Part shown: positions 8,710-24,897 of the stretch, one piece after another
Layout: every line of letters starts with the position of its first letter
How positions within the stretch are numbered: the stretch's first letter is position 1
Source of the DNA: Candidatus Aphodenecus pullistercoris
GTDB taxonomy: Bacteria > Spirochaetota > Spirochaetia > Sphaerochaetales > Sphaerochaetaceae
NCBI GenBank assembly: GCA_017694495.1
Contig: JADIMU010000021.1
Location: 1-37,902, forward strand
Length of the DNA: 37,902 nucleotides
Reading direction: 5' to 3'
Notes under the pieces: generated by a model
Databases searched by the model: none
Told to the model about the DNA's origin: nothing
Seen by the model: only the letters and a program-made list of their open reading frames with translations
Translations under genes and position numbers: made by a program

Positions 8710-8781
8710 GCGAAAGTAGCTCAGTGGTAGAGCTCCACCTTGCCAAGGTGGATGTCGCGGGTTCAAGTCCCGTCTTTCGCT
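8710..8781 (+). tRNA. tRNA-Gly(GCC)
   Basis: A complete 72-nt cloverleaf: acceptor GCGAAAG/CTTTCGC, D arm GCTC-AGTGGTA-GAGC, anticodon stem CCACC/GGTGG with loop TTGCCAA (GCC), T arm GCGGG-TTCAAGT-CCCGT, discriminator T and no encoded CCA. Its last 42 nt form the attachment site of the element that begins here, so the 3' half may have been supplied by the element on integration without changing the tRNA. Confidence 0.97.
8740..8781 (+). repeat. attL: 42-bp core shared with attR
   Basis: The 42 bp from the anticodon loop to the discriminator base of tRNA-Gly recur without mismatch at 24856-24897. The flanking bases differ on both sides, so the limits are sharp. This is the classic footprint of tyrosine-recombinase integration into a tRNA 3' end. 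Confidence 0.93.
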
Positions 8782-8923: not shown

Positions 8924-8953
8924 TTTGGAGATAATCCCCGAATTTGCTAAAAT
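8924..8953 (+). promoter_or_regulatory. Probable integrase promoter
   Basis: TTTGGA (8924-8929) and TAAAAT (8948-8953) are spaced by 18 bp. The expected transcript start near 8960 lies downstream of the alternative TTG start at 8944, which supports the ATG at 8995. Confidence 0.5.
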
Positions 8954-8994
8954 TCAGGAGGAAACATTTGTTTTACAACATCAGAAGGAGCACG

Positions 8995-10302
8995 ATGGGA
9001 ATTACAATCGGAGATGTAAGCATCTACAAACGAGGCAGGAAGGAATACAACGGGGTCAAAAGAAAGCCTTCATGGTATTGCCAGCTCAGGAATCCTCTCA
9101 CCGGTCAATTTCCTGGAGGAAGGACATACAGCGTTACGAAACTGGCAAAGCAGTTGGGATATCGGAACACATTCAAGCTGAATGGTACTGATGCAAAGAA
9201 CATAGTACAGGAAGCGATCAGCAAGGGGCTCATCAAGGGCGTGTCGCAATATGAAGTTGACGGTTCACTTTCTCCCCTCATCCCCTATGTGGAGAAGATA
9301 CTCAACTATGATGAATCGCCATGGGTGCAGTCTGAAAACAGAAGAAAGATAGACCGGCTATCTCGCGCAAACGTGAAAAACATGGAATCCGCATTCAGAC
9401 TTCATGCGAAACCCCATATCGATCCCAAGACAACAATAATCGGATTCTCGAAACTCGATGCGCAGAAATTGCAGGACAAGATGCACGAAGCTGGAGCAAG
9501 TCCTGACAACATCAACATGGCCATCAAGGCCATGAGAACAGCTTACAACTTCGCCGTTCAGACCGACATCGTGGATTTCAATCCTTTCTCTTACGTCAAG
9601 CCGTATTCAGTCAAACGCCGTGAAAGAGAGATTCTATCAAGAGCCGAGGCGAAGCAGGTTCTTGAATTCATGCAGATTTTCGCTCAGGAGTCCCCATCAA
9701 GGCACGTCGCCTATCTTGCGGCAAAGCTCGCTGTATATGGCGGAATGCGGGAATCCGAAATCCGCGTATTCAGTCTGAACAAGCTCAAAAGAGTGATGAA
9801 TGATGCTGGAGAGCCCACACCGTTCTACAAGGTAGATGTATCGGAAAGCTGGGTCGACGCTGAAAAGGATATAGGCCCCACAAAAGAGCGATACAAGAGG
9901 ACGACAGTCATTCATGAAGACCTAGTGAAAGAGCTGATTGCCTTTGCGGAAAAATATGGCAGGAGCGAATCTGATCTGTTGTTCGCTTCCTTCTCCAAAG
10001 GGAAATCCTCCCAGCCCTATGTCAAAAACATTTTCCAAGACTATTTCTATGATGCTCTTGAAGCCATGGGGATATCAAAAGAAATACGCATGAGCCGGCA
10101 TATCGATTTCCAGAGCCTCAGGCACTTCCATGATTCAGAAAGCAAGGCATCTGCGGAACGGCTTGAACCATACAAGGCGGAAATCAGAGCAGCCATCGGT
10201 CACAAAAGCAAGACTGTTGACGAACTGATCTATACACACGACACACCGACAAGTCTGGTTACGCTCGGTGTGATGTCGAAACACATACTGGACACAAAAT
10301 AG
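8995..10302 (+). CDS. int: Tyrosine recombinase (element integrase)
   Basis: A 435-aa phage-type integrase. It has an N-terminal arm-binding-like part, a SAM-like core-binding domain (about 95-205), and a catalytic domain with YGGMRESEI (R252), SLRHFHD (R376), AIGHKSK (H403) and LIYTHD (Y413, nucleophile). The His of the usual HxxR box II is Gln here (QSLR, Q373). It is next to attL inside tRNA-Gly, so it is expected to integrate and excise this element. The ATG at 8995 has AAGGAG 4 bp upstream; an in-frame TTG at 8944 would lie before the likely transcript start. The unknown 402-aa gene follows after 9 bp. Confidence 0.92.
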   Translation: MGITIGDVSIYKRGRKEYNGVKRKPSWYCQLRNPLTGQFPGGRTYSVTKLAKQLGYRNTFKLNGTDAKNIVQEAISKGLIKGVSQYEVDGSLSPLIPYVEKILNYDESPWVQSENRRKIDRLSRANVKNMESAFRLHAKPHIDPKTTIIGFSKLDAQKLQDKMHEAGASPDNINMAIKAMRTAYNFAVQTDIVDFNPFSYVKPYSVKRREREILSRAEAKQVLEFMQIFAQESPSRHVAYLAAKLAVYGGMRESEIRVFSLNKLKRVMNDAGEPTPFYKVDVSESWVDAEKDIGPTKERYKRTTVIHEDLVKELIAFAEKYGRSESDLLFASFSKGKSSQPYVKNIFQDYFYDALEAMGISKEIRMSRHIDFQSLRHFHDSESKASAERLEPYKAEIRAAIGHKSKTVDELIYTHDTPTSLVTLGVMSKHILDTK

Positions 10303-10311
10303 GAGAAGTAC

Positions 10312-11520
10312 ATGATCACATACATAGAAGCAAAACAGCGTACAGATGCCTTTCTTGAGAAAAAGGTACAGGAAATCAGCAATCTGAATCATAAAATCAT
10401 GGGCAAGTCCCATTCAAAGGAGTTCCGTTGGAACGCCAAGAGCGAGTCATTGCTCCATTTCGAGCATATAGCTTTCGTGATACTCCGCGACTATCTGGTT
10501 GAAGCGGTCAGGCAAGGCATTGAAGGTTCAGACAAGAATGTCACCAACTGCATCAAACAGAATGTCATTCTCTTTATCATGGATCAGGCAAAGATCAAGA
10601 TGAAGAGAATGCTCTGGGACAAGCTCTTCGGGAAATACGACGACAGAAGAACCGAGCTGGACTCACGTTACGCTACTGCGAATTGGCTCATCATCGCAAT
10701 GCGTCTCTGGTTTGATGATCATCCCGAAGAGAAGGATGCATTTGGGGACGCGATTAACTGGAAGAATACGACACTTCTGCGAAAATACATCATTGAAAAC
10801 CGCTTCAGCTCAGAACATCCATTCAATGACTTCTTCAACGATACAGACTACAGGACTCTTGTCGAGACCTTCTGTATCCCGTATCTCTCCCCTGAAGCGG
10901 AAGAAGAACTCAATCCGAAGCCAGAACCTGATGATCCTAAAAAGGATGCTCTCATCGACGCCCTTGAGCAGCTTCGCGAAAAGCTTGATTCCGGAAAATC
11001 AAGTCTCCAAAAAGTATTAGAAGAACTTGGAGAACTTTCAAGGAAAGTCAAGGATATCTTTAAACAGGGTGGAACGATTGCAACAGCGTCAAAAGAGATC
11101 AGTACAAAACTCAAGTCAATAAGCAATCAGAACACAGAGATTGCCAATGATGTTCAGGATGCACTCGATAACATCAGTAAAATCTGGGAGGACAAGTTCG
11201 CCAATGAAGAAGACAGACTTGCCCATTACAAAGCAATAGCCGCCGACAAAATATTTCTTGGCGCGTTTCTTGCGAAATACAAGGCTGAACATGGAGACTG
11301 GCTTCAGAAACATGCAAAAGGTCAACAAATCTTCTATACCATCAAGAAAGAGGATCACCTTCTCAACCAGATCCTCTTTGCAATCTTCGATAAACGTCCT
11401 GACATCAAATTCGAAGCAATCGATGCCTACCTCAGATATGAAGATGGCTACAAGACAATACCGTCAAATACAATCTACGATGCAAGAAAGAGATGGAATT
11501 ACAATCGGAATGGCAACTGA
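10312..11520 (+). CDS. Hypothetical protein of the element, 402 aa
   Basis: I do not recognise a family. The ATG has TAGGAGAAG upstream and lies 9 bp after the integrase stop, so both are probably on one transcript. The N-terminal 200 residues look helical and globular (HFEHIAFVILRDYLVEAVRQGI, TANWLIIAMRLWFDD). A Pro/Asp/Lys-rich hinge (about 203-212) follows, then a long coiled-coil-like region (about 213-310: ALEQLREKLDSGKSSLQKVLEEL and later heptads). The C-terminal part (about 320-402) is basic near the end (ARKRWNYNRNGN). There is no transmembrane segment or signal peptide. It could be an integrase accessory, a regulator or a defence gene; nothing in the sequence decides. Confidence 0.7.
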   Translation: MITYIEAKQRTDAFLEKKVQEISNLNHKIMGKSHSKEFRWNAKSESLLHFEHIAFVILRDYLVEAVRQGIEGSDKNVTNCIKQNVILFIMDQAKIKMKRMLWDKLFGKYDDRRTELDSRYATANWLIIAMRLWFDDHPEEKDAFGDAINWKNTTLLRKYIIENRFSSEHPFNDFFNDTDYRTLVETFCIPYLSPEAEEELNPKPEPDDPKKDALIDALEQLREKLDSGKSSLQKVLEELGELSRKVKDIFKQGGTIATASKEISTKLKSISNQNTEIANDVQDALDNISKIWEDKFANEEDRLAHYKAIAADKIFLGAFLAKYKAEHGDWLQKHAKGQQIFYTIKKEDHLLNQILFAIFDKRPDIKFEAIDAYLRYEDGYKTIPSNTIYDARKRWNYNRNGN

Positions 11521-11526
11521 TTCAAA

Positions 11527-11775
11527 CTGAGAGGGGACAACCTATATGCGTTACCTTTTCCCCTCAGACTCTCCTTTCCCACCATTGCAACATCTAGGAG
11601 CTTTCCTCTCCTGGATGTACCACACCTTCCCCTTCAGTGAGACTGTCAGCGCGGAAAGTAAAGGACAAGACAAGAGCCAGAGGCTTCCTTGACTGTCCGC
11701 TTGCTGACATCTCTTCGGGATGCAGCCACATTCCTGTCAAGGGCCAAGACGAGACACTGCGTGTGCCCTGTGACA
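11527..11775 (+). ncRNA. Candidate structured RNA or leader upstream of radC
   Basis: The 359-bp gap between the 402-aa gene and radC has no convincing gene but several consecutive stems. They are: 11531-11537 with 11559-11565 (7 bp); 11590-11600 with 11608-11618 (11 bp, one G-T); 11645-11655 with 11696-11708 (11 bp, TT bulge); 11708-11722 (UUCG-type hairpin); and 11735-11744 with 11765-11775 (10 bp, one-base bulge) enclosing ACAC/GTGT. The reading frame upstream of the radC ATG is open but has no family similarity. It may be a cis-regulatory leader, a free RNA or DNA folded as a single strand. No known RNA class was recognised. Confidence 0.45.
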
Positions 11776-11879
11776 TCCATTACCACCTGATCCCAGGCTT
11801 CATTTCTTCTCGCCCCGTCGCGGGAGATGTAACCACCGCAACGGAGATTGCAAATCCTGAATTTCTGGAGGTAGAGGAA

Positions 11880-12557
11880 ATGGCCTACACACAGATGGAA
11901 CTTTTCGAGACATTCGAGAAGACACAGACGATTGCAGAGAAGATTGCCCAGTATGGAGTCAAAGGACTTGGAGACTGCGAGCTCATGGTTGAGCTCATCA
12001 GACCGTATCTCTCATCAAGAGCGGATGCAAAGAGGACAGCAAACGAGATACTTGACGCATTGAATTGCAACGTAACCCCTTCGCTGACAGACCTGACAAG
12101 TATCAAGGGAGTATCAAAGGAGCTGGCATCCGGCATACTCATCGCTCTTGAGTTCGGCAGACGCAAGGGAGAGAAGACGGCAAGATCAATCACCAGCCCG
12201 AACGACATCTACAGGGAGACCTATCACTTCACGCACGAGGAACAGGAGCACTTCATCGTCATGGCTCTCAATGGAGCTCACGAGATTCTCTTCACCAAGT
12301 GCATAACAACTGGGATTGTCAACAAGACGCTGGCCCATCCCAGAGAGGTATTCTCGGATGCAATCAAGGCAAGAGCGACGGCAATCGCCATAGCCCACAA
12401 CCATCCATCGGGCACACTTGAGCCGAGCGATGATGACATCTCGCTCACGAAGCGGATAAGGTTGGCCGGAGACATACTGGGAATCAAGGTTCTTGACCAT
12501 CTGATAATCACAGACAAGAGCTACTATAGTTTTCTGGAACATGGAATGCTGGATTAG
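11880..12557 (+). CDS. radC: RadC-family JAB-domain protein
   Basis: A 225-aa protein with an N-terminal helix-hairpin-helix-like part (LTSIKGVSKELASGILIALEFGRR) and a C-terminal JAB/MPN domain. The metal-binding motif HNHPSGTLEPSDDD contains H173, H175 and D186. RadC proteins are common on mobile elements and are often near replication or anti-restriction genes; the biochemical role is unsettled. The ATG at 11880 has GGAGG 8 bp upstream. An in-frame GTG at 11637 would add 81 residues without family similarity, so it is rejected. The structured region 11527-11775 precedes it and a terminator follows. Confidence 0.9.
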   Translation: MAYTQMELFETFEKTQTIAEKIAQYGVKGLGDCELMVELIRPYLSSRADAKRTANEILDALNCNVTPSLTDLTSIKGVSKELASGILIALEFGRRKGEKTARSITSPNDIYRETYHFTHEEQEHFIVMALNGAHEILFTKCITTGIVNKTLAHPREVFSDAIKARATAIAIAHNHPSGTLEPSDDDISLTKRIRLAGDILGIKVLDHLIITDKSYYSFLEHGMLD

Positions 12558-16244: not shown

Positions 16245-16483
16245 GACACAGCCCTTATTAATAATTAATAATTAATCTATTAATAATCACTGTGTCATCT
16301 ATGAACCCTGTGTAAGCAGGGTTCATAGACTTCATAGCACATATGTGCTGTTTTCCCACTGGCATCTGTTGATGCCTTATCCCATGGTTGAACCCACATA
16401 TACACATGCTTCCCATGAACCATGTGAGCCAGAAGGAAAAGTGTCTCAGGAATTAACAATTCTTAACACTAATTCCTTCTGGC
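16245..16483. other. Palindromic AT-rich region, candidate replication origin or oriT
   Basis: Together with 16557-16811 this fills a 606-bp gene-free gap (16237-16842). An AT-rich core is flanked by nested inverted repeats: GACACAG 16245-16251 with 16290-16296, and TTATTAATA 16255-16263 with 16278-16286. Next come a perfect 12-bp hairpin (16299-16310 with 16317-16328), a 14-bp palindrome AGCACATATGTGCT (16336-16349), a CATGGTT/AACCATG pair (16383-16389 with 16418-16424) and an 11-bp inverted repeat (16428-16438 with 16473-16483). ATGAACCCTGTG (16301) and ATGAACCATGTG (16415) look iteron-like. It lies between replication and mobilization genes, so it could serve either function. Confidence 0.5.
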
Positions 16484-16556: not shown

Positions 16557-16811
16557 GAAGATGAGCCATGGTTGCTCCAGACATCCAGTGCCGGTTCCGG
16601 ACTACGAGATTTCATCCTAGTCAATCGAAATCTCTCCGCTACACGCGCATCACTGTCTGTCTTCCGGAACCATGTCCCGTCTTCAGTCAGCAAGGGGTAA
16701 GAATGCTTCACATTCTTGTCCCCCCACATGCTCAGGCATGTGCCCCCGTTCCCTCTGGTCAGGGGGTTGCCGATACTGGATTCAGGCCTCTGTTGTCGGC
16801 CTGTCATCCAG
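16557..16811 (+). promoter_or_regulatory. Structured region upstream of mobC, candidate oriT or RNA leader
   Basis: A chain of stems precedes mobC: GAGATTTC 16606-16613 with 16627-16634; GGGG-AAGAATG (16694-16705) with CATTCTT-CCCC (to 16723); CACATGC-TCAG-GCATGTG (16725-16742); CCCCC 16743-16747 with 16762-16766; and CTGGAT-CAGGCC (16776-16788) with GGCCTG-ATCCAG (16798-16811). Upstream, AACCATG (16668-16674) can pair with 16567-16573, while the overlapping CCGGAACC (16664-16671) can pair with 16593-16600, so two folds exclude each other. A weak -10-like TATACT sits at 16522-16527. Confidence 0.5.
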
Positions 16812-16842
16812 ATTGTCCCACTGCTTTCAAGGGAGGTCAGGA

Positions 16843-17145
16843 ATGAGAGAACACTTCGTGAACACAAGGCTGAACGATGAGGAGATCAGCCTGCTGGACA
16901 GTCTGAGGAAAGGGACATCCCTTTCACGCTCATCGTACATGAGAGCGGCAGCCTTGGGGACTCCGCCCCGTATAGTTCCCGATGCGAATAGAGAGTTATG
17001 GGTTGCTCTTTCGCGTGTGGGAAGCAATCTCAATCAGCTTGCAGCGGCGGCGAACATCGGCGGTTTTCCTGCTGGGCTCGAGGCATCGATCGAGGAGACC
17101 AGACGCCTTCTCCGCGATGTGAGGGCGCAGCTGGTAGGAGGATGA
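16843..17145 (+). CDS. mobC: MobC-like relaxosome accessory protein
   Basis: A 100-aa protein. The N-terminal part (VNTRLNDEEISLLDSLRKG, SRSSYMRAAALG) has a ribbon-helix-helix-like layout. The second half carries the MobC signature VGSNLNQLAAAAN, followed by a helix (EASIEETRRLLRDVRAQLVG). MobC proteins bind near oriT and help open DNA for the relaxase. The ATG at 16843 follows GGGAGGTCAGGA; the longer frame from 16672 runs through the hairpin region and is not coding-like. mobA starts 3 bp after the stop. Confidence 0.82.
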   Translation: MREHFVNTRLNDEEISLLDSLRKGTSLSRSSYMRAAALGTPPRIVPDANRELWVALSRVGSNLNQLAAAANIGGFPAGLEASIEETRRLLRDVRAQLVGG

Positions 17146-17148
17146 GCC

Positions 17149-17973
17149 ATGAAGGCGAACATCACGCGGGGAGATGTCTACAAGCCACTTGTCCAGTATG
17201 GAGCCGATATCGGGAGGAAAGGTACTGGCAGAAAACATGCCGAGTACATCGGAGGGACTATCGAGGAGTCGTCTGTTGACGACATCGTGAAGACCCTCCT
17301 AGTGCCCCAGAAGGTGCGCAAGGTGGACAGGCCGGTCTATCACATATCGCTATCACAGCCGCCTGGTGAGCGTCTGACGAGCGCCCAGTGGAGAGATGTG
17401 ATAGAAGCCTTCCTGAGGAAGATGGGAATACCTCCTGACACGCCCTGGATCGCCTACAGGCACAACGACACGCCACATGACCATGTGCATATCTGCATGT
17501 CCCGTGTGTCGCTCAGTGGCAGTCTGTATCTCGGACAGTTCGAGATGCTGAAGGCGATACAGGCGACGCAGGAGATCGAGGAGGAGTTCGGGCTTACCCG
17601 TACAAAAGGCCTCGGGAAGGACAGGAACGGACTGACAAGAGGAGAACGGAGGATGATTGAACGGACACAGAAGCTGAGCGACAAGCAGCTCATAAGAATC
17701 CAGGTCGACAAGGCCCTCGCAAGGTCTGCCTCGATGGAGGAGTTCACGATCCGGCTTGGAGATGTCGGCATCGAGGTCAGGCTCAACGGTTCCAAGGCTG
17801 GTCGCATATCCGGAATCAGCTTCAGCCGTGACGGATTTTCAGTGAAGGGATCGAAGCTCGGTTCGAAGTACAGCTACAGCGCTCTCAGCAGAAGGCTGCC
17901 TTCAATCGCCGAGATATCGATTGGATACGAGAAGAACCTTGGCTCACGTACAAGGTCAGTCAGAACCAGATAG
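17149..17973 (+). CDS. mobA: MobA-type relaxase
   Basis: A 274-aa protein of the relaxase/mobilization nuclease family. It has a candidate catalytic Tyr in HAEYIGG (Y33), the PVYHISLSQPPGERLTSAQW segment, and the metal-binding motif RHNDTPHDHVHI (H105, H110, H112, H114). Relaxases nick oriT, stay covalently bound to the 5' end and lead the strand into the recipient through a conjugation system supplied by another element. The C-terminal part is short, without a primase or helicase extension. It is co-transcribed with mobC and followed by the coiled-coil/TM gene. Confidence 0.88.
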   Translation: MKANITRGDVYKPLVQYGADIGRKGTGRKHAEYIGGTIEESSVDDIVKTLLVPQKVRKVDRPVYHISLSQPPGERLTSAQWRDVIEAFLRKMGIPPDTPWIAYRHNDTPHDHVHICMSRVSLSGSLYLGQFEMLKAIQATQEIEEEFGLTRTKGLGKDRNGLTRGERRMIERTQKLSDKQLIRIQVDKALARSASMEEFTIRLGDVGIEVRLNGSKAGRISGISFSRDGFSVKGSKLGSKYSYSALSRRLPSIAEISIGYEKNLGSRTRSVRTR

Positions 17974-19179: not shown

Positions 19180-19682
19180 TTCTCTTCCTCCTTTCGTTTA
19201 GGCCATTCTTCATATATCGCACTACCATTACCACTGACATCTATTGTAAACCGTTTTCTTTTTCGAATAGCACCAAAAATCTTGTAACTAACCATACCAT
19301 GTAACAGTACTGTTTCTTTTGCAAATTCGCCTCTATCTCCTTGAAGATAAAGTATATATCTTTTCATCTCTCCTGGCAGAAGCTGAAGCTGATGGGTATG
19401 TAATTCTTTCAAACAGCCAACTTTGTTCTTTATCTTTGGATCTGCAACCTTCTTACCGATTATATCAACGTCAGCAGTTTCAAATTTGACTATTACATTC
19501 TCAGCTCCAGTGGTTCCGATATTCACTATTTCAAGGACAGTTCGATCAAAGAAGGAATGAGTCCGTAACACAACATTTGGCCGATATGCTAAACGCAATT
19601 GAAAACATGTCAGTATCAAAGCTAGGAAAGCAATGATTGTGGATAAGATACCTGCAAAATCAATACTTCCTGTCATGCTCAC
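19176..19682 (-). CDS. Membrane-anchored protein, second gene of the restriction operon
   Basis: A 168-aa protein with one N-terminal transmembrane segment (about 9-29, FAGILSTIIAFLALILTCFQL). The rest is a beta-rich soluble domain (NVVLRTHSFFDRTVLEIVNIGTTGAENVIVKFETADVDI; LLPGEMKRYILYLQGDRGEF) ending in charged residues. The soluble part resembles a small immunoglobulin-like or beta-sandwich fold; no catalytic motif is seen. It overlaps the restriction enzyme stop and the lipoprotein start by 4 bp each. It may be a membrane effector or sensor of the system, or just a passenger. Confidence 0.72.
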   Translation of the reverse strand: MSMTGSIDFAGILSTIIAFLALILTCFQLRLAYRPNVVLRTHSFFDRTVLEIVNIGTTGAENVIVKFETADVDIIGKKVADPKIKNKVGCLKELHTHQLQLLPGEMKRYILYLQGDRGEFAKETVLLHGMVSYKIFGAIRKRKRFTIDVSGNGSAIYEEWPKRKEEEK

Positions 19683-22600
19683 TCCTTATCCCAGTCCACT
19701 TCTGGAAGTGAATTGACAATATCTACTGTCTGACAGCTGACATTGATGACAGACAGTAGCAGGTCGAGAATGTATCTAGGATTTCCATGCTCCTTACCCC
19801 AGTCGTTTGGATCATTAGTTATGCCACTGTCCTTGTCTGTCTTGACCTGATAACGCTCCATAATCCAGTCGATTGCGCTTTTGCCATTGACGACATACTC
19901 AAATGCCTTGGCAGGGATATTCGTCACTTTGATGGAATCGTTGTAGAGAATAGTGTCAATCTCTCCTTTCTTCGGATAGCGCATCTTGGTGACGGCATAG
20001 TCTCCGATGTCGCCTTCGACAACGACATCCGGATGAGCTGGCACTGATTCATAGTTGAGATGGAGATCGGCAAGCTTGCGCCCTGCCTTCGATAAATCCC
20101 AGAACTTCTGTGGCTCCGTGACTAAAGGAAGACGAGGAAGTTGCATCTTAAGATCATCTGCGAACTTCTCTATATAGCTCTTGGAATGAAGGATGCCATA
20201 GACATAGTAGAAAATGTCCTCTTTGGTTACACGAGGCCCATATTTCTGCTGAGCTTGAGTGAGGATGAAATCTGTTATTCCATCATACTTTGAATAAGTT
20301 ATCTCATCCCCAAATAGAGCAATCTGTCCATAATCAATATCTTTATCTTCTTTATACCAATACAAAGGATACCATTGCCCATTCATCTGTAATTGAACAT
20401 CTGGTAATACATTGCAAATCATAGCAGAAAGCTGTTTTGTACCCCCAACTCCACTAACACCAATAAGCAGGTTTTTTGTTTCTAGAGTAGGAAACAATTT
20501 ATCCATTTGGCCAGGACGATGAATCATTCCGTCTCCAAAATAGGCGTTCTGTTTGCAGAACGGTCTATATAGTCCTTGATATAAGCTTTTTTCTTGAAAC
20601 ACAAGAGTTTGTTTTTTCTTCAATCTGTTTTCAAGGCTACTGGACCACGAAATCTGTGTTGGATTAGTATTCCTCAACTTGCTTGATTCCTTTTCATTTT
20701 CTATCTCTTGATTAAAGAAAAACATCATTCGTTTTACAGAGGTTGCAAGTTTTTCTGTAGAAAAATTATAAACCCATGCATCTCTAGAAGTTTCTAACCC
20801 CCTTGAGTACCAATTACAAAAAAAAGTCTTTTCGTTATCTTTATCCTTTTTTGCTCCGAGAAGGATGTACTCATCGAATTTCTTATTCTTCTTGCGAATC
20901 CAGCCACCATATTCATCAGGAACAAGTTCTGCGCCCTTGAATTTTCTGTCCACCACAGAGCGATATTCCTTGCACAACTCAAGCTTCTGCTCTCGTGTCA
21001 AGTAATCATCGACAGCCTTGTACATTATCTTTGCACGCCCACTAAAACCCTGTTTTTTTACAAGAATCGTGATTGCAATAGGAGTTCGACTACCTGAACC
21101 GAAAATCTTACCACCTTCTTTTCTTGAAAGTTCTCCAGATGTCCTCTGGTTTCCTCTCAGGTTGAAGATATAGATGTTCGAGAACTCCTGCTCAAAGCAC
21201 TTGCGCATGCCATCCATTGCATTGCCGTCAAGCCAGCCAGCATTGGTAACAAAACCTATTATTCCGTCTTTATTCTCAAGACGGTCAGCACTCCAACGGA
21301 AGGCCTTGATATAGGAGTCATAAATGGCATTCTTGTTCGTTGCATTCGTTTTCGCCGCATATGTATCTGCTATTCTGGCTTCCAGTTTTTCATAATGCTG
21401 ATTCTGCGCGTTGTCATTTGCTGAATCTTGGCCTACTGAATATGGAGGATTGCCGATGATAACCGTTATTGGAGTTTCCTGAAGATTTGAAACCCGTTTT
21501 GAATTCTGCGGAAATACTTCTTCCATAGGGAGCTTCGTCTCACCCATCTGGAATGTATCCGTCATGCAGATGCCTTCAAACGGCTCATACTCAATCTTCT
21601 GCTGAGGGAATGTAATCTCATTATCTTGGTCTGCAACCTGTTCGAAATCATATTTGTCGTCTACATCTTCAGAACGCATCTGGTCAGCAATGAAGTCATG
21701 ATAAGCATTCTCTATGTTGATGGACGCTATGTAATAGGCAAGCAGGACAATCTCACAGGCATGGAGCTCGCTCTTGTACTTCCTTGCCATATCCTCCGGT
21801 TTAATGATACCGCTCTGAAGAAGCCTGACAATGAATGTTCCGGTGCCCGTGAACGGATCAAGGATATGGACATTCTCATCAGAAAGAGAACGGCCAAATT
21901 CCTTCTTCATGACATCTTCAACGGAGTTTATGATGAAGTCGACAACCTCAACGGGAGTGTAGACGATTCCAAGTTTCTCCACGGTCTTAGGGAATGCTGT
22001 CTTGAAAAACTTGTCATATAGCTCGACTATGACCTTCTGCTTGCCTTCTGCGTTATCGATGTCCTTGGCTCTCTCTCGTACGGACTCATAGAATCTCTCC
22101 AGTTTCTCGTTGTCTTCCTTTGGAGTCTGTTCATTGAGAATCTTCACCATTCCCTGCATCGACTTCGAGACGGCATTGTTCTGGACAAACGAGTAGTCCT
22201 GGAACAAAGCCTCGAAGACAGGCTGTGTGATGAAGTGCTGTGCAAGCATCTCGATTGCATCATCATCCGTGACAGAAGGATTGATGTTTTTCCTCAGTCC
22301 TTTGACGTATCTCTGGAAAGCCTTCTGAGCCTGGCTTCCATCTTCCGAGATTAGTTTCTTTATCTGGGTGATATGACGTTCGGCAATATCTGCAACATCA
22401 GCTGCCCACTGTTCCCAATAGCGCCTGTCGCCGACCTTCTTAACCAGCCTGGAGAAAACGGCATTCTGCATGTTCTCAAAATTGAGATATAGCTGCTTCT
22501 GTTCCTTCTGTCGGAAGGCGTCATCCATTCCATCGCTGCTTCCATCAACGTCATGGATGTTTGCAACACCTCCGACAAGAATCTGCGCTGGCCGCTTCTT

Positions 22601-24598
22601 GTTCAGTTCAATCTTGTTTACCGTTGCATTGAATCTGTCATCATGGGCACGAAGAGCCTGAAGGACATCCCAGACAATTCCAAAGTACTTGTTGTTATCC
22701 AGAGCTTTCTCAGGCTCCCTTCCAGAAGGAATGACAACGGGGATGATGATGTATCCATATTTCTTCCCTGGAGCTCGACGCATGACACGACCGACGGACT
22801 GGACAACATCAATCTCGCTGTTACGCGCAGAGAGGAAAAGGACTGCATCAAGAGATGGAACATCGACACCTTCGCTGAGACAGCGGACGTTCATCAGCAC
22901 ATTGCAAGTATTCGACTCCCTGTCGACATCCTTGAGCCACTGAAGCTTTCTCGATCTCTCTGTAGATCCCATGCTTCCGTCGACATGATCTGCATTGATG
23001 GAAACAATCCTGGCTCGCTCTTCCGGAGTAAGAGTGTCATAATAGGCATCACGGCACGTATCCATCATGGAGACTGTCTTCTTTGAAATCTTGATGTTCT
23101 GACAGAAGGCGATGGCGTTGTGCATCAGGCCAGGATCGACCTCGTTGAGAAGCTTCGTGTCCTTGGTTATCTTCGACAGCGCATTGATGCAGCCAATAAG
23201 CTTCAATGAATCATCAGCAGGAATCTCTTCATCCTTGCTGTTGATATGATTCTGCAACTCTGTCGACATCTCGTCCTCATTGAGTGTAAGGACAAGAACC
23301 TTGTAGTCGGATAGTAGTCCAAGCTGAACAGCCTTTCCGAATCCTATCCGGTAAATCTCCTCGCCATACCAGAGAGGATCATCCATTGTCCAGATTGTAG
23401 CCTCGGCATCTGTGGCTTTCTTTACATCCTTGCTGGAGTAGAGGCGCGGAGTGGCTGTCATGTACAGACGCTTCCTGGCATTTATATTCTTGTTGTCATG
23501 AACCTTTGTAAATTCGGATTCGTCGGTATCCTTCAGTTTCAAGCCAGTGGTTCTATGAGCCTCATCGCAGACGCAGAGGTCAAAAGGCAGACCATCGCTG
23601 AAACGCTGCTGAACAGCTGAGACTACACTGATTGACTGGTATGTCGAGAAGATGACGACCATGCCACCATCCTGTTGCTGATTCATCTTGGCTTCTCTGA
23701 TCTGATGCTCAATCTCCGAATATGATGTCGATGCAGGAAGTGCCAGATCGATGATGGATTCTCCAACTTCATCATCGCAAGTCACTTTCTGAGAGACCTT
23801 CGGGTCGGAACAGATACAAATGCCATGTATCGGTTTTTCTGCCTGAGCAGACCATTCCTTGAGAGTCTGTCCGACAAGGGCAATAGAAGGAGCCAGGAAG
23901 AGTACAATCGGAGCAGTGCTTGTTCTTGTTTCATTCTCAGCTATCTTCAACGAAGTATATGTCTTACCTGTACCACAGGCCATGATGAGCTTACCTCGGT
24001 CATGGGTTTTGAAATACTCGTGTGTCTTGTCAATGGCTTCCTTCTGATGAAGGCGAGGTTCATACTTCGGAGCTTCCGCTTCAGCTCCGAACAGTCCTTC
24101 ATCGAGCTTGTCCCAGTCGACATTGGCCTCTTCAAGATCGTACAGTCCCATCCTCATTACAGGTGGTGTCTGACCTTTCAACGTGTTCTCAGCATTGACT
24201 GTGAATCCCTTGCCAGATGTGTCGAACCAAAGCCGTCTTGAGAAGTTGACTATATGACCATACTGATCGACATCGTTGAACTTCTTTGCCGAGGTTGAAA
24301 GAAATGTGTCGACGGCGCTCTTGTCTATGGATGTATTCTCTCCATAGCACTTGCACTGGACAGCCCAGTATTCCCCGAGTTTGGTTCTGACGACGAGGTC
24401 TATTCCCGTATCGACTCCGGTACCGAAGTCGGTTCGAGATGGAAATTCATTCCAGAGCCACACGTCCCTTATCATCTCGCCTTTGTAAGTTGGAACCGTA
24501 AGGAGGAAAGCCTTCATCAGACGTTCGAACCTGTTTCCCTGATCCCTTTTGCTGAATGATAAAGTCCTGTATTTCTTGATTATTGTCCAAAAGCTCAT
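19679..24598 (-). CDS. Single-chain Type ISP-like restriction-modification enzyme
   Basis: A 1639-aa protein. Domains in order: an Mrr-like nuclease (D67 in TGIDLVV; Q81 and K83 in AVQCKCY); a superfamily 2 helicase with ACGTGKT (207-213), CDEAH (345-348), MTATPRLY and QSVGRVMRR; a helical coupler; an N6-adenine methyltransferase with DPFTGTGTF (near 915) and NPPYSVG (near 1050); and a C-terminal target-recognition region. This order and length match LlaGI/LlaBIII-type enzymes, which methylate one strand of an asymmetric site and cut after two translocating enzymes collide. The ATG at 24598 has AAAGGGG 6 bp upstream; a TTG two codons earlier would touch it. The gene appears intact and lower in GC than host genes. 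Confidence 0.88.
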   Translation of the reverse strand: MSFWTIIKKYRTLSFSKRDQGNRFERLMKAFLLTVPTYKGEMIRDVWLWNEFPSRTDFGTGVDTGIDLVVRTKLGEYWAVQCKCYGENTSIDKSAVDTFLSTSAKKFNDVDQYGHIVNFSRRLWFDTSGKGFTVNAENTLKGQTPPVMRMGLYDLEEANVDWDKLDEGLFGAEAEAPKYEPRLHQKEAIDKTHEYFKTHDRGKLIMACGTGKTYTSLKIAENETRTSTAPIVLFLAPSIALVGQTLKEWSAQAEKPIHGICICSDPKVSQKVTCDDEVGESIIDLALPASTSYSEIEHQIREAKMNQQQDGGMVVIFSTYQSISVVSAVQQRFSDGLPFDLCVCDEAHRTTGLKLKDTDESEFTKVHDNKNINARKRLYMTATPRLYSSKDVKKATDAEATIWTMDDPLWYGEEIYRIGFGKAVQLGLLSDYKVLVLTLNEDEMSTELQNHINSKDEEIPADDSLKLIGCINALSKITKDTKLLNEVDPGLMHNAIAFCQNIKISKKTVSMMDTCRDAYYDTLTPEERARIVSINADHVDGSMGSTERSRKLQWLKDVDRESNTCNVLMNVRCLSEGVDVPSLDAVLFLSARNSEIDVVQSVGRVMRRAPGKKYGYIIIPVVIPSGREPEKALDNNKYFGIVWDVLQALRAHDDRFNATVNKIELNKKRPAQILVGGVANIHDVDGSSDGMDDAFRQKEQKQLYLNFENMQNAVFSRLVKKVGDRRYWEQWAADVADIAERHITQIKKLISEDGSQAQKAFQRYVKGLRKNINPSVTDDDAIEMLAQHFITQPVFEALFQDYSFVQNNAVSKSMQGMVKILNEQTPKEDNEKLERFYESVRERAKDIDNAEGKQKVIVELYDKFFKTAFPKTVEKLGIVYTPVEVVDFIINSVEDVMKKEFGRSLSDENVHILDPFTGTGTFIVRLLQSGIIKPEDMARKYKSELHACEIVLLAYYIASINIENAYHDFIADQMRSEDVDDKYDFEQVADQDNEITFPQQKIEYEPFEGICMTDTFQMGETKLPMEEVFPQNSKRVSNLQETPITVIIGNPPYSVGQDSANDNAQNQHYEKLEARIADTYAAKTNATNKNAIYDSYIKAFRWSADRLENKDGIIGFVTNAGWLDGNAMDGMRKCFEQEFSNIYIFNLRGNQRTSGELSRKEGGKIFGSGSRTPIAITILVKKQGFSGRAKIMYKAVDDYLTREQKLELCKEYRSVVDRKFKGAELVPDEYGGWIRKKNKKFDEYILLGAKKDKDNEKTFFCNWYSRGLETSRDAWVYNFSTEKLATSVKRMMFFFNQEIENEKESSKLRNTNPTQISWSSSLENRLKKKQTLVFQEKSLYQGLYRPFCKQNAYFGDGMIHRPGQMDKLFPTLETKNLLIGVSGVGGTKQLSAMICNVLPDVQLQMNGQWYPLYWYKEDKDIDYGQIALFGDEITYSKYDGITDFILTQAQQKYGPRVTKEDIFYYVYGILHSKSYIEKFADDLKMQLPRLPLVTEPQKFWDLSKAGRKLADLHLNYESVPAHPDVVVEGDIGDYAVTKMRYPKKGEIDTILYNDSIKVTNIPAKAFEYVVNGKSAIDWIMERYQVKTDKDSGITNDPNDWGKEHGNPRYILDLLLSVINVSCQTVDIVNSLPEVDWDKE

Positions 24599-24623
24599 CG
24601 CCAACCCCTTTGTGATACTCGAT

Positions 24624-24855: not shown

Positions 24856-24897
24856 TTGCCAAGGTGGATGTCGCGGGTTCAAGTCCCGTCTTTCGCT
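24856..24897 (+). repeat. attR: 42-bp copy of the tRNA-Gly 3' end
   Basis: Exact copy of 8740-8781. The base before it (T) differs from the tRNA (C), and no acceptor or D arm precedes it, so it is a tRNA fragment and not a gene. Confidence 0.93.

Follow-up and report, generated by a model that had tools for sequence, protein, structure and literature searches.

A conserved fold with a repeated bulged-hairpin unit upstream of radC in a mobilizable element of Candidatus Aphodenecus pullistercoris

In this study, we analysed a window of 37,902 nucleotides, contig C3 of the 2.07-Mb genome of Candidatus Aphodenecus pullistercoris (labelled G000), and found that the non-coding region directly upstream of radC is a conserved fold, confirmed by compensatory changes in its homologs. 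Two of its domains are copies of one bulged-hairpin unit, which pairs without any G-U. Both the structure and the unit appear to be undescribed before. The explanation which we favour, although tentatively, is that the region acts as a folded single-stranded DNA site that is read by a protein.

Results

The structured region belongs to a mobilizable integrative element of about 16 kb. An exact 42-bp direct repeat was found at 8740-8781, corresponding to the 3′ end of a tRNA-Gly gene (8710-8781, + strand, ARAGORN), and again at 24856-24897 (+), and about 16.1 kb are therefore inserted in tRNA-Gly. The element starts with a tyrosine recombinase gene, its integrase (8944..10302, +; Pfam PF00589), followed by the gene of a 402-aa protein (10312..11520, +), which has no assigned function and gave no match in Pfam and NCBIfam searches. 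This gene ends just 5′ of the structured region, after which come radC (11880..12557, +; JAB domain; Pfam PF04002, NCBIfam TIGR00608) and genes for DUF669, Toprim_3 and AAA_25 proteins; a NikA-like accessory protein and a MobA/VirD2-type relaxase are encoded further downstream (16672..17973, +; Pfam PF21983 and PF03432). The last gene of this series, at 19679-24604, encodes a type ISP restriction-modification protein of 1641 aa.

An inverted repeat at 16606-16634 and a sharp edge of homology at 16583 suggest that oriT is located left of nikA, in a putative region of 16583..16640 whose nick position and direction of transfer are predicted from the sequence. The relaxase side of an element usually enters the recipient last. 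By this rule and the above placing of oriT, the leading region would include the hairpins, radC and its neighbours, and the incoming strand would be the one from which they are read. The order and orientation of the relaxase, putative oriT, AAA_25, Toprim, DUF669, radC and the structure were identical in the window's own copy (W) and in genome G007. Between AAA_25 and the putative oriT, 16245-16330 contains AT-rich nested inverted repeats with a perfect 13-bp stem (TCTATGAACCCTG/CAGGGTTCATAGA), which could be a candidate replication origin.

The first-pass annotation had drawn attention to a 250-bp non-coding stretch of a mobile element, at 11527-11775, filled by five or more stems of 6-11 bp. 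The stems were indeed present in the predicted fold and the stretch was structured and non-coding as described, but it does not stop at 11775: the structured region, between the 402-aa protein gene and radC, covers about 11529-11856. On the + strand, 11527-11775 folded with -85.4 kcal/mol. Dinucleotide-shuffled sequences averaged -70.0 (sd 4.8), which gives z -3.21, and one in 200 of them folded equally well; the minus strand of the same stretch was unremarkable as RNA (z -1.05). When widened to 11520-11885 (366 nt), the + strand reached z -4.57 as RNA, with 0 of 100 shuffles as good; with DNA parameters the values were z -4.11 for the + strand (0/100 shuffles) and z -2.54 for the - strand (2/100 shuffles). 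The 146-nt radC-side part showed no excess of folding energy alone (z -0.06 to -0.77, + strand, five copies tested), and its support therefore comes from covariation and not from energy.

The region has four to five domains, described here as A to E, all on the + strand. Domain A (11531..11565) is a GGGGA/TCCCC stem with the conserved loop CAACCTATATGCGTTACCTTT, identified from the fold and from the homologs G047a, G063 and G050, and domain B (11590..11618) is a ACATCTAGGAG/CTCCTGGATGT hairpin with a CTTTCCT loop, identified in the same way, whose stem differs in sequence in G063 and G050 and still pairs. Domains A and B are each supported by three distinct sequences, with one G-U pair each in W. 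Domain C (11639..11713) is a long interrupted stem of the fold containing unit copy 1 (core 11656-11698), with the bulge CAAGACAAG at 11666-11674; it was matched by the unit model R2 with an E value of 1.9e-10, as a copy that belonged to the training set of this model. Domain D (11717..11794), established by covariation and by the homology to G007 and G012 that begins at 11717, is a GGGATGCAG/CTGATCCC stem around unit copy 2 (core 11733-11778; bulge CAAGACGAG at 11745-11753). Domain E (11814..11844) was defined by the covariation analysis and comprises the hairpins CCCG/CGGG (11814-11824), a helix 100% paired over nine copies, and CCG/CGG (11836-11844).

A single bulged-hairpin unit is present twice, as domain C and as domain D. 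It is composed of an outer stem GTMAAGG/CCTTKAC, a nearly invariant unpaired 5′ bulge of 9 nt, CAAGRCRAG, with nothing opposite, and an apical hairpin of 4 bp that varies freely and is always Watson-Crick. The architecture of the unit is AAGGA-CAAGACAAG-AGCC-AGA-GGCT-TCCTT in domain C and AAGGGC-CAAGACGAG-ACAC-TGC-GTGT-GCCCT in domain D. As for the UUCG-type loop also pointed out in the annotation, the hairpin CATCTC-TTCG-GGATG was present in W and in its 98% copy G047a only; at this position TTCG was absent in the other five copies of alignment A4, and the 3′ arm GGGATGCAG covaries instead with CTGATCCC at 11787-11794. The loop is thus real in two copies but is not a conserved feature.

Several simpler accounts of the stems were considered and rejected. 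A simple terminator, already thought improbable by the annotation, was dismissed, as no U run follows the stems and a scan showed no terminator-like site in 11527-11880. Chance folding was rejected by the covariation described below. Hidden coding was rejected as well: although W has an open frame upstream of radC, the lengths of the alignment gaps are not divisible by three. As claimed earlier, radC has its own ribosome site upstream; a helix CATTTCTTCT/AGAGGAAATG which would sequester this site showed no covariation (0 both-side cells).

To find homologs, 139 genomes of the family were searched at the DNA level. One near-identical copy (G047a, 98%) was obtained, along with several loci that share the radC-side half only and one, G063, that shares the 5′ half only, at a contig end. 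In this contig (G063:C77, L116), a long imperfect inverted repeat, ATCATCAGGGGG..CCCCCTGATGAT, is located about 600-700 bases before the end, upstream of the genes preceding the 5′ half copy. A covariance model (R1) of the radC-side half (module DE, W 11711-11856) was built from seven loci. At E≤0.1 it matched 10 of the 138 family genomes, and at E≤2e-16 eight loci in 7 of the 138, seven of these loci being the training copies; among 394 genomes of the class, the eight found at E≤0.01 were all known already. The weak match G050 was recognized, by eye and by alignment, as a full-length but divergent copy containing domains A to D, that in G040 (E 5.5e-4) lies chiefly in domain E, and a further match was obtained in G136 (E 0.09).

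Downstream of the eight strong module loci, radC was intact at four (W, G047a, G012 and G007), truncated at two (G047b and G033, by tblastn) and left as a remnant, recognized by eye, at G061; at the eighth locus, G045, its state is ambiguous. The homology block between W and both G007 and G012 covers 11717-12556, from domain D to the end of radC, and the module and radC therefore travel together. In viral contigs, a search with the radC protein gave one 57-residue radC piece only and that with the 402-aa protein gave nothing, while blastn of the 376-bp region against phages and a plasmid collection showed no similarity. At the G061 locus, a DUF3800-I RNA (RF02969; L102 3235-3355, -) was also seen 2 kb from the decayed module copy.

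The check for compensatory changes proposed by the annotation gave a clear result. Over nine loci, both-side changes occurred in 13 of the 29 pairs of module DE, with 31 both-side cells compared with 10.4 in shuffles (0/500); slid versions of the structure gave at most 3 cells, a comparison in which the unslid structure is favoured because alignment A7 was fitted to it. With the first seven loci, from which the structure was derived, both-side changes were found in 8 of 29 pairs (17 cells vs 6.1 in shuffles). For the unit, 26 copies gave 73 both-side cells compared with 23 in shuffles (0/500), with 93.3% paired; alignment A10, like A7, was fitted to its model. Furthermore, the module is 82.1% identical between W and G012, compared with 50% at the fourfold sites of radC (78 sites), and is hence under purifying selection. 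The annotation was ready to give up the structure if homologs lacked compensatory changes and folding was no better than in shuffles; both the changes and the folding excess were found.

The compact unit was then searched for on its own with model R2 (11 training rows), which recovered the trained copies plus new ones. In genus g21, one to three tandem units were found between a nifU-like and a uridine-kinase-like gene, and one unit with a gamma-glutamyltransferase-like gene on one side and a membrane-protein gene on the other (neighbours named by eye from translations); in G131 and G134 the units stand in tandem two to three times. Another family (f23) contained three units, and downstream of each there was a GxxExxY (PF13366) gene or what is left of one, the remnants being recognized by eye. 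The bulged strand was sense to the GxxExxY gene in 3/3 of these cases, as it is to the downstream gene at radC, and antisense to the neighbours at two g21 loci. In genome G180, two GxxExxY genes (L208 6866-7141 and L225 1663-2034) share a similar stretch, SSSMSAPxYVHPCT, apparently one small insert present in both.

Copies of the unit are few: the strict pattern was found in 1 of 237 phylum genomes and in 2 of 7 genomes of f23, and G000 has two units at one locus. Many copies have C or T directly before GTC. Further R2 matches were obtained in G009, G132:C89, G023, G011, G090, G071 and G045:C43; those in G109, G110, G036 and G065 looked by eye like chance matches in coding sequence and were rejected, and those in G107 and G115 fall in the score class of G110. 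When viral contigs were scanned with the unit pattern, 14 stretches were found, compared with 5 for the pattern read backwards as a control. Eight of the 14 loci were viewed in context and seven, chosen for complete hairpins, were passed to R2; six of the seven gave E≤0.0042, all six with a complete hairpin. Six viral-contig stretches with the D core pattern lacked the hairpin on inspection. Blastn searches with single hairpins against plasmids and phages returned short partial matches, and none of the three inspected had the CAAGRCRAG bulge.

Pairing in the unit is strictly Watson-Crick. The 26 copies contained 275 Watson-Crick and 0 G-U pairs, although all four Watson-Crick types occur in the apical stem; 212 and 0 remained in 20 copies when the six viral-contig copies, chosen for good hairpins, were dropped. 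Six module copies had 2 G-U in 180 paired cells, a count that leaves out G061, G045 and G050; nine copies with these three included had 228 Watson-Crick, 5 G-U, 10 A-C and 17 other pairs. By the same counting method, 11 HEARO RNAs of the window's bacterial family had 60 G-U in 498 (12%), and minimum free energy folds of six tRNAs of the window had 16 in 149. For the G-U share of the module against that of HEARO, Fisher p was 1e-6, and 7e-5 when only the four least related copies were counted, the rows of the test being not independent.

Discussion

An RNA helix normally drifts through G-U, and a DNA hairpin gains nothing from it. The helices described here are almost purely Watson-Crick while the HEARO RNAs of the same family carry G-U, and relative to the genes the bulged strand changes orientation, from sense at radC and GxxExxY to antisense at the g21 loci; for these two reasons, the reading as DNA fits best. 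The predicted geometry, with the relaxase-to-structure gene order and orientation shared by W and G007, also agrees with it, being like that of leading regions with single-strand promoters (PMC11541004; PMC9849209). Among the three roles that the annotation had offered, folded single-stranded DNA is thus preferred on G-U counts and strand orientation, a radC leader stays a live rival, and a free RNA is hypothetical. In the DNA mechanism, the units would fold when the element becomes single-stranded during conjugative transfer or replication, and a protein partner would read the invariant CAAGRCRAG bulge of the folded unit. Such reading might lead to primed replication, to an early start of transcription or to DNA processing in the leading region, which would carry radC together with the primase-like and helicase-like genes of the element.

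Some observations count against a DNA site. The + strand folds better relative to shuffles than the - strand with both DNA and RNA parameters, and this speaks against the DNA reading because the transferred strand would be the - strand. The module at radC is always in sense and ends near the ribosome site, like RNA leaders. An RNA selected for stability could also avoid G-U, and a few such pairs are in fact present among module copies that are decayed or distant (5 in nine copies).

These points lead to the first alternative, which we hold to be possible although rather doubtful: a cis-acting structured RNA leader of the riboswitch or protein-binding type, co-transcribed with radC and controlling its translation or stability. 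The module does point to a same-sense radC at the strong loci (intact, truncated or remnant at seven of the eight), the units precede GxxExxY genes in the same sense in all three f23 cases, and the + strand has its strongest folding excess as RNA (z -4.57). On the other hand, the near absence of G-U (0 against 275 in the unit, 2/180 in the module) is not expected from such a leader, as passage through G-U in covarying helices is typical of structured RNA leaders, if not strictly required. A helix hiding the ribosome site did not covary, no intrinsic terminator was found by the scan between 11527 and 11880, and the g21 copies are antisense to the adjoining genes.

Known structured RNAs gave no match. 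Rfam searches at the gathering threshold were negative, and a cmscan of 11480-11900 at E values up to 10 returned only four chance-level animal RNA families, without a covariance-model match to the radC RNA motif (RF01754), and nine other unit loci had no family match, with two chance-level matches elsewhere. Our literature searches did not find a published description of the structure or the unit, with most subscription papers outside their coverage. The radC RNA motif is listed as a candidate structured RNA, likely cis-regulatory, of Proteobacteria (Weinberg et al., 2010; PMC2864571), and it is named for radC, the gene which our region precedes; judged from its table entry and not its drawing, it differs in its host group and in the lack of any match of our region to its Rfam model. 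STAXI (RF01728), according to the portion of the same paper available to us, consists of two, usually three, tandem units near DNA-handling protein genes in Enterobacteriales, and its authors weighed folded single-stranded DNA (Weinberg et al., 2010). The tandem copies of one structured unit near DNA-handling genes resemble this arrangement, whereas STAXI units are described there as pseudoknots with frequent UUCG loops, the region has no conserved UUCG, and no covariance-model match to STAXI was found in the window region. Since that discussion, conserved structured RNAs beside DNA-handling genes in mobile elements have been under suspicion of working as folded DNA, a suspicion that had lacked a clean test. 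Covariation free of G-U can itself tell folded DNA from structured RNA.

With more reserve than the DNA reading of the radC region itself, we would suggest that the unit represents an undescribed family of DNA-acting bulged hairpins, present in several bacterial groups and viral contigs and placed next to DNA-handling genes. In such a family, CAAGRCRAG would be the recognition element, with the rest held by Watson-Crick pairing only. In mobile elements the hairpins would lie in the first part to enter and would act there, with a protein bound, as a start site or a processing site for single-stranded DNA. If true, a compact bulged unit would provide a sequence handle on the single-strand steps of mobile DNA outside Proteobacteria. 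The unit with its invariant bulge is easily made and can be tested for protein binding, priming and transcription.

Less likely, the hairpins could be a mobile or formerly mobile palindromic repeat of the REP/MITE kind, standing before radC by chance, with copies spread by a nuclease or transposase. The unit occurs near unrelated genes and in tandem in G131 and G134, its complete hairpin is present in six viral contigs, and its loci precede nuclease-like genes (radC JAB and GxxExxY PDDEXK_3). However, its copy number is very low, both in G000 and under the strict pattern across the phylum, and the module moves with radC as a single block. GTAG and CGTC REPs are short extragenic palindromes like the unit, which they also resemble in the C or T that stands before GTC in many of its copies, but have unpaired tags and short loops; the CGTC type, as far as described in the accessible text, has an unpaired tag, an 8-9 bp stem starting with AT, a loop of 4-5 nt and a high copy number (PMC3733652). 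In our unit GTC is paired, the bulge has 9 nt and the copies in G000 are confined to one locus, and identity with CGTC REPs was rejected.

An improbable further option is a Frpo-type promoter of single-stranded DNA, from which, on the incoming strand, radC and the genes lying towards oriT would be driven. Frpo and ssi are reported, in the parts of the sources at hand, as folded non-coding DNA upstream of leading-region genes that point to oriT, and the predicted leading-region geometry of our element resembles regions with such promoters (PMC11541004; PMC9849209). The predicted position and gene direction, the folding of both strands with DNA parameters (z -4.11 and -2.54) and a TTGACA-like hexamer, which by eye most copies have in the right arm of domain D, would agree with this. 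Nevertheless, a promoter scan found no sigma-70-like promoter in 11500-11880, where the -35 and -10 boxes of a Frpo promoter would be rebuilt in the stem, no -10 element stands at the proper distance by scan or by eye, and the 376-bp region has no blastn similarity to any record of the plasmid collection; lacking a -10 box, the region was not classed as Frpo.

Finally, the HEARO omega RNA of IscB (RF02033) is likewise a structured RNA of mobile DNA that precedes a nuclease gene, and is common in the window's family, but an orphan omega RNA is refuted for the window region and next to impossible as an explanation, given its other sequence, its 12% G-U and the absence of a HEARO match in the window region and in L001, L097, L099, L100, L101, L102 and L125, while 11 other loci, retrieved for IscB, did contain HEARO RNA. 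The one circumstance in its favour comes from G050, in which an IscB gene (L132 2763-4004, -) with a HEARO RNA (L133 2872-3109, -) lies directly downstream of the full-length copy; the HEARO match starts where the module copy ends, and the IscB element adjoins the copy without being part of it. This would place the guide position of that omega RNA within the copy. In G000 itself, eight IscB-like matches, many of them partial, were seen on contigs C2, C6, C13, C19, C28, C40, C42 and C61, with a HEARO RNA on contig C2 (L158).
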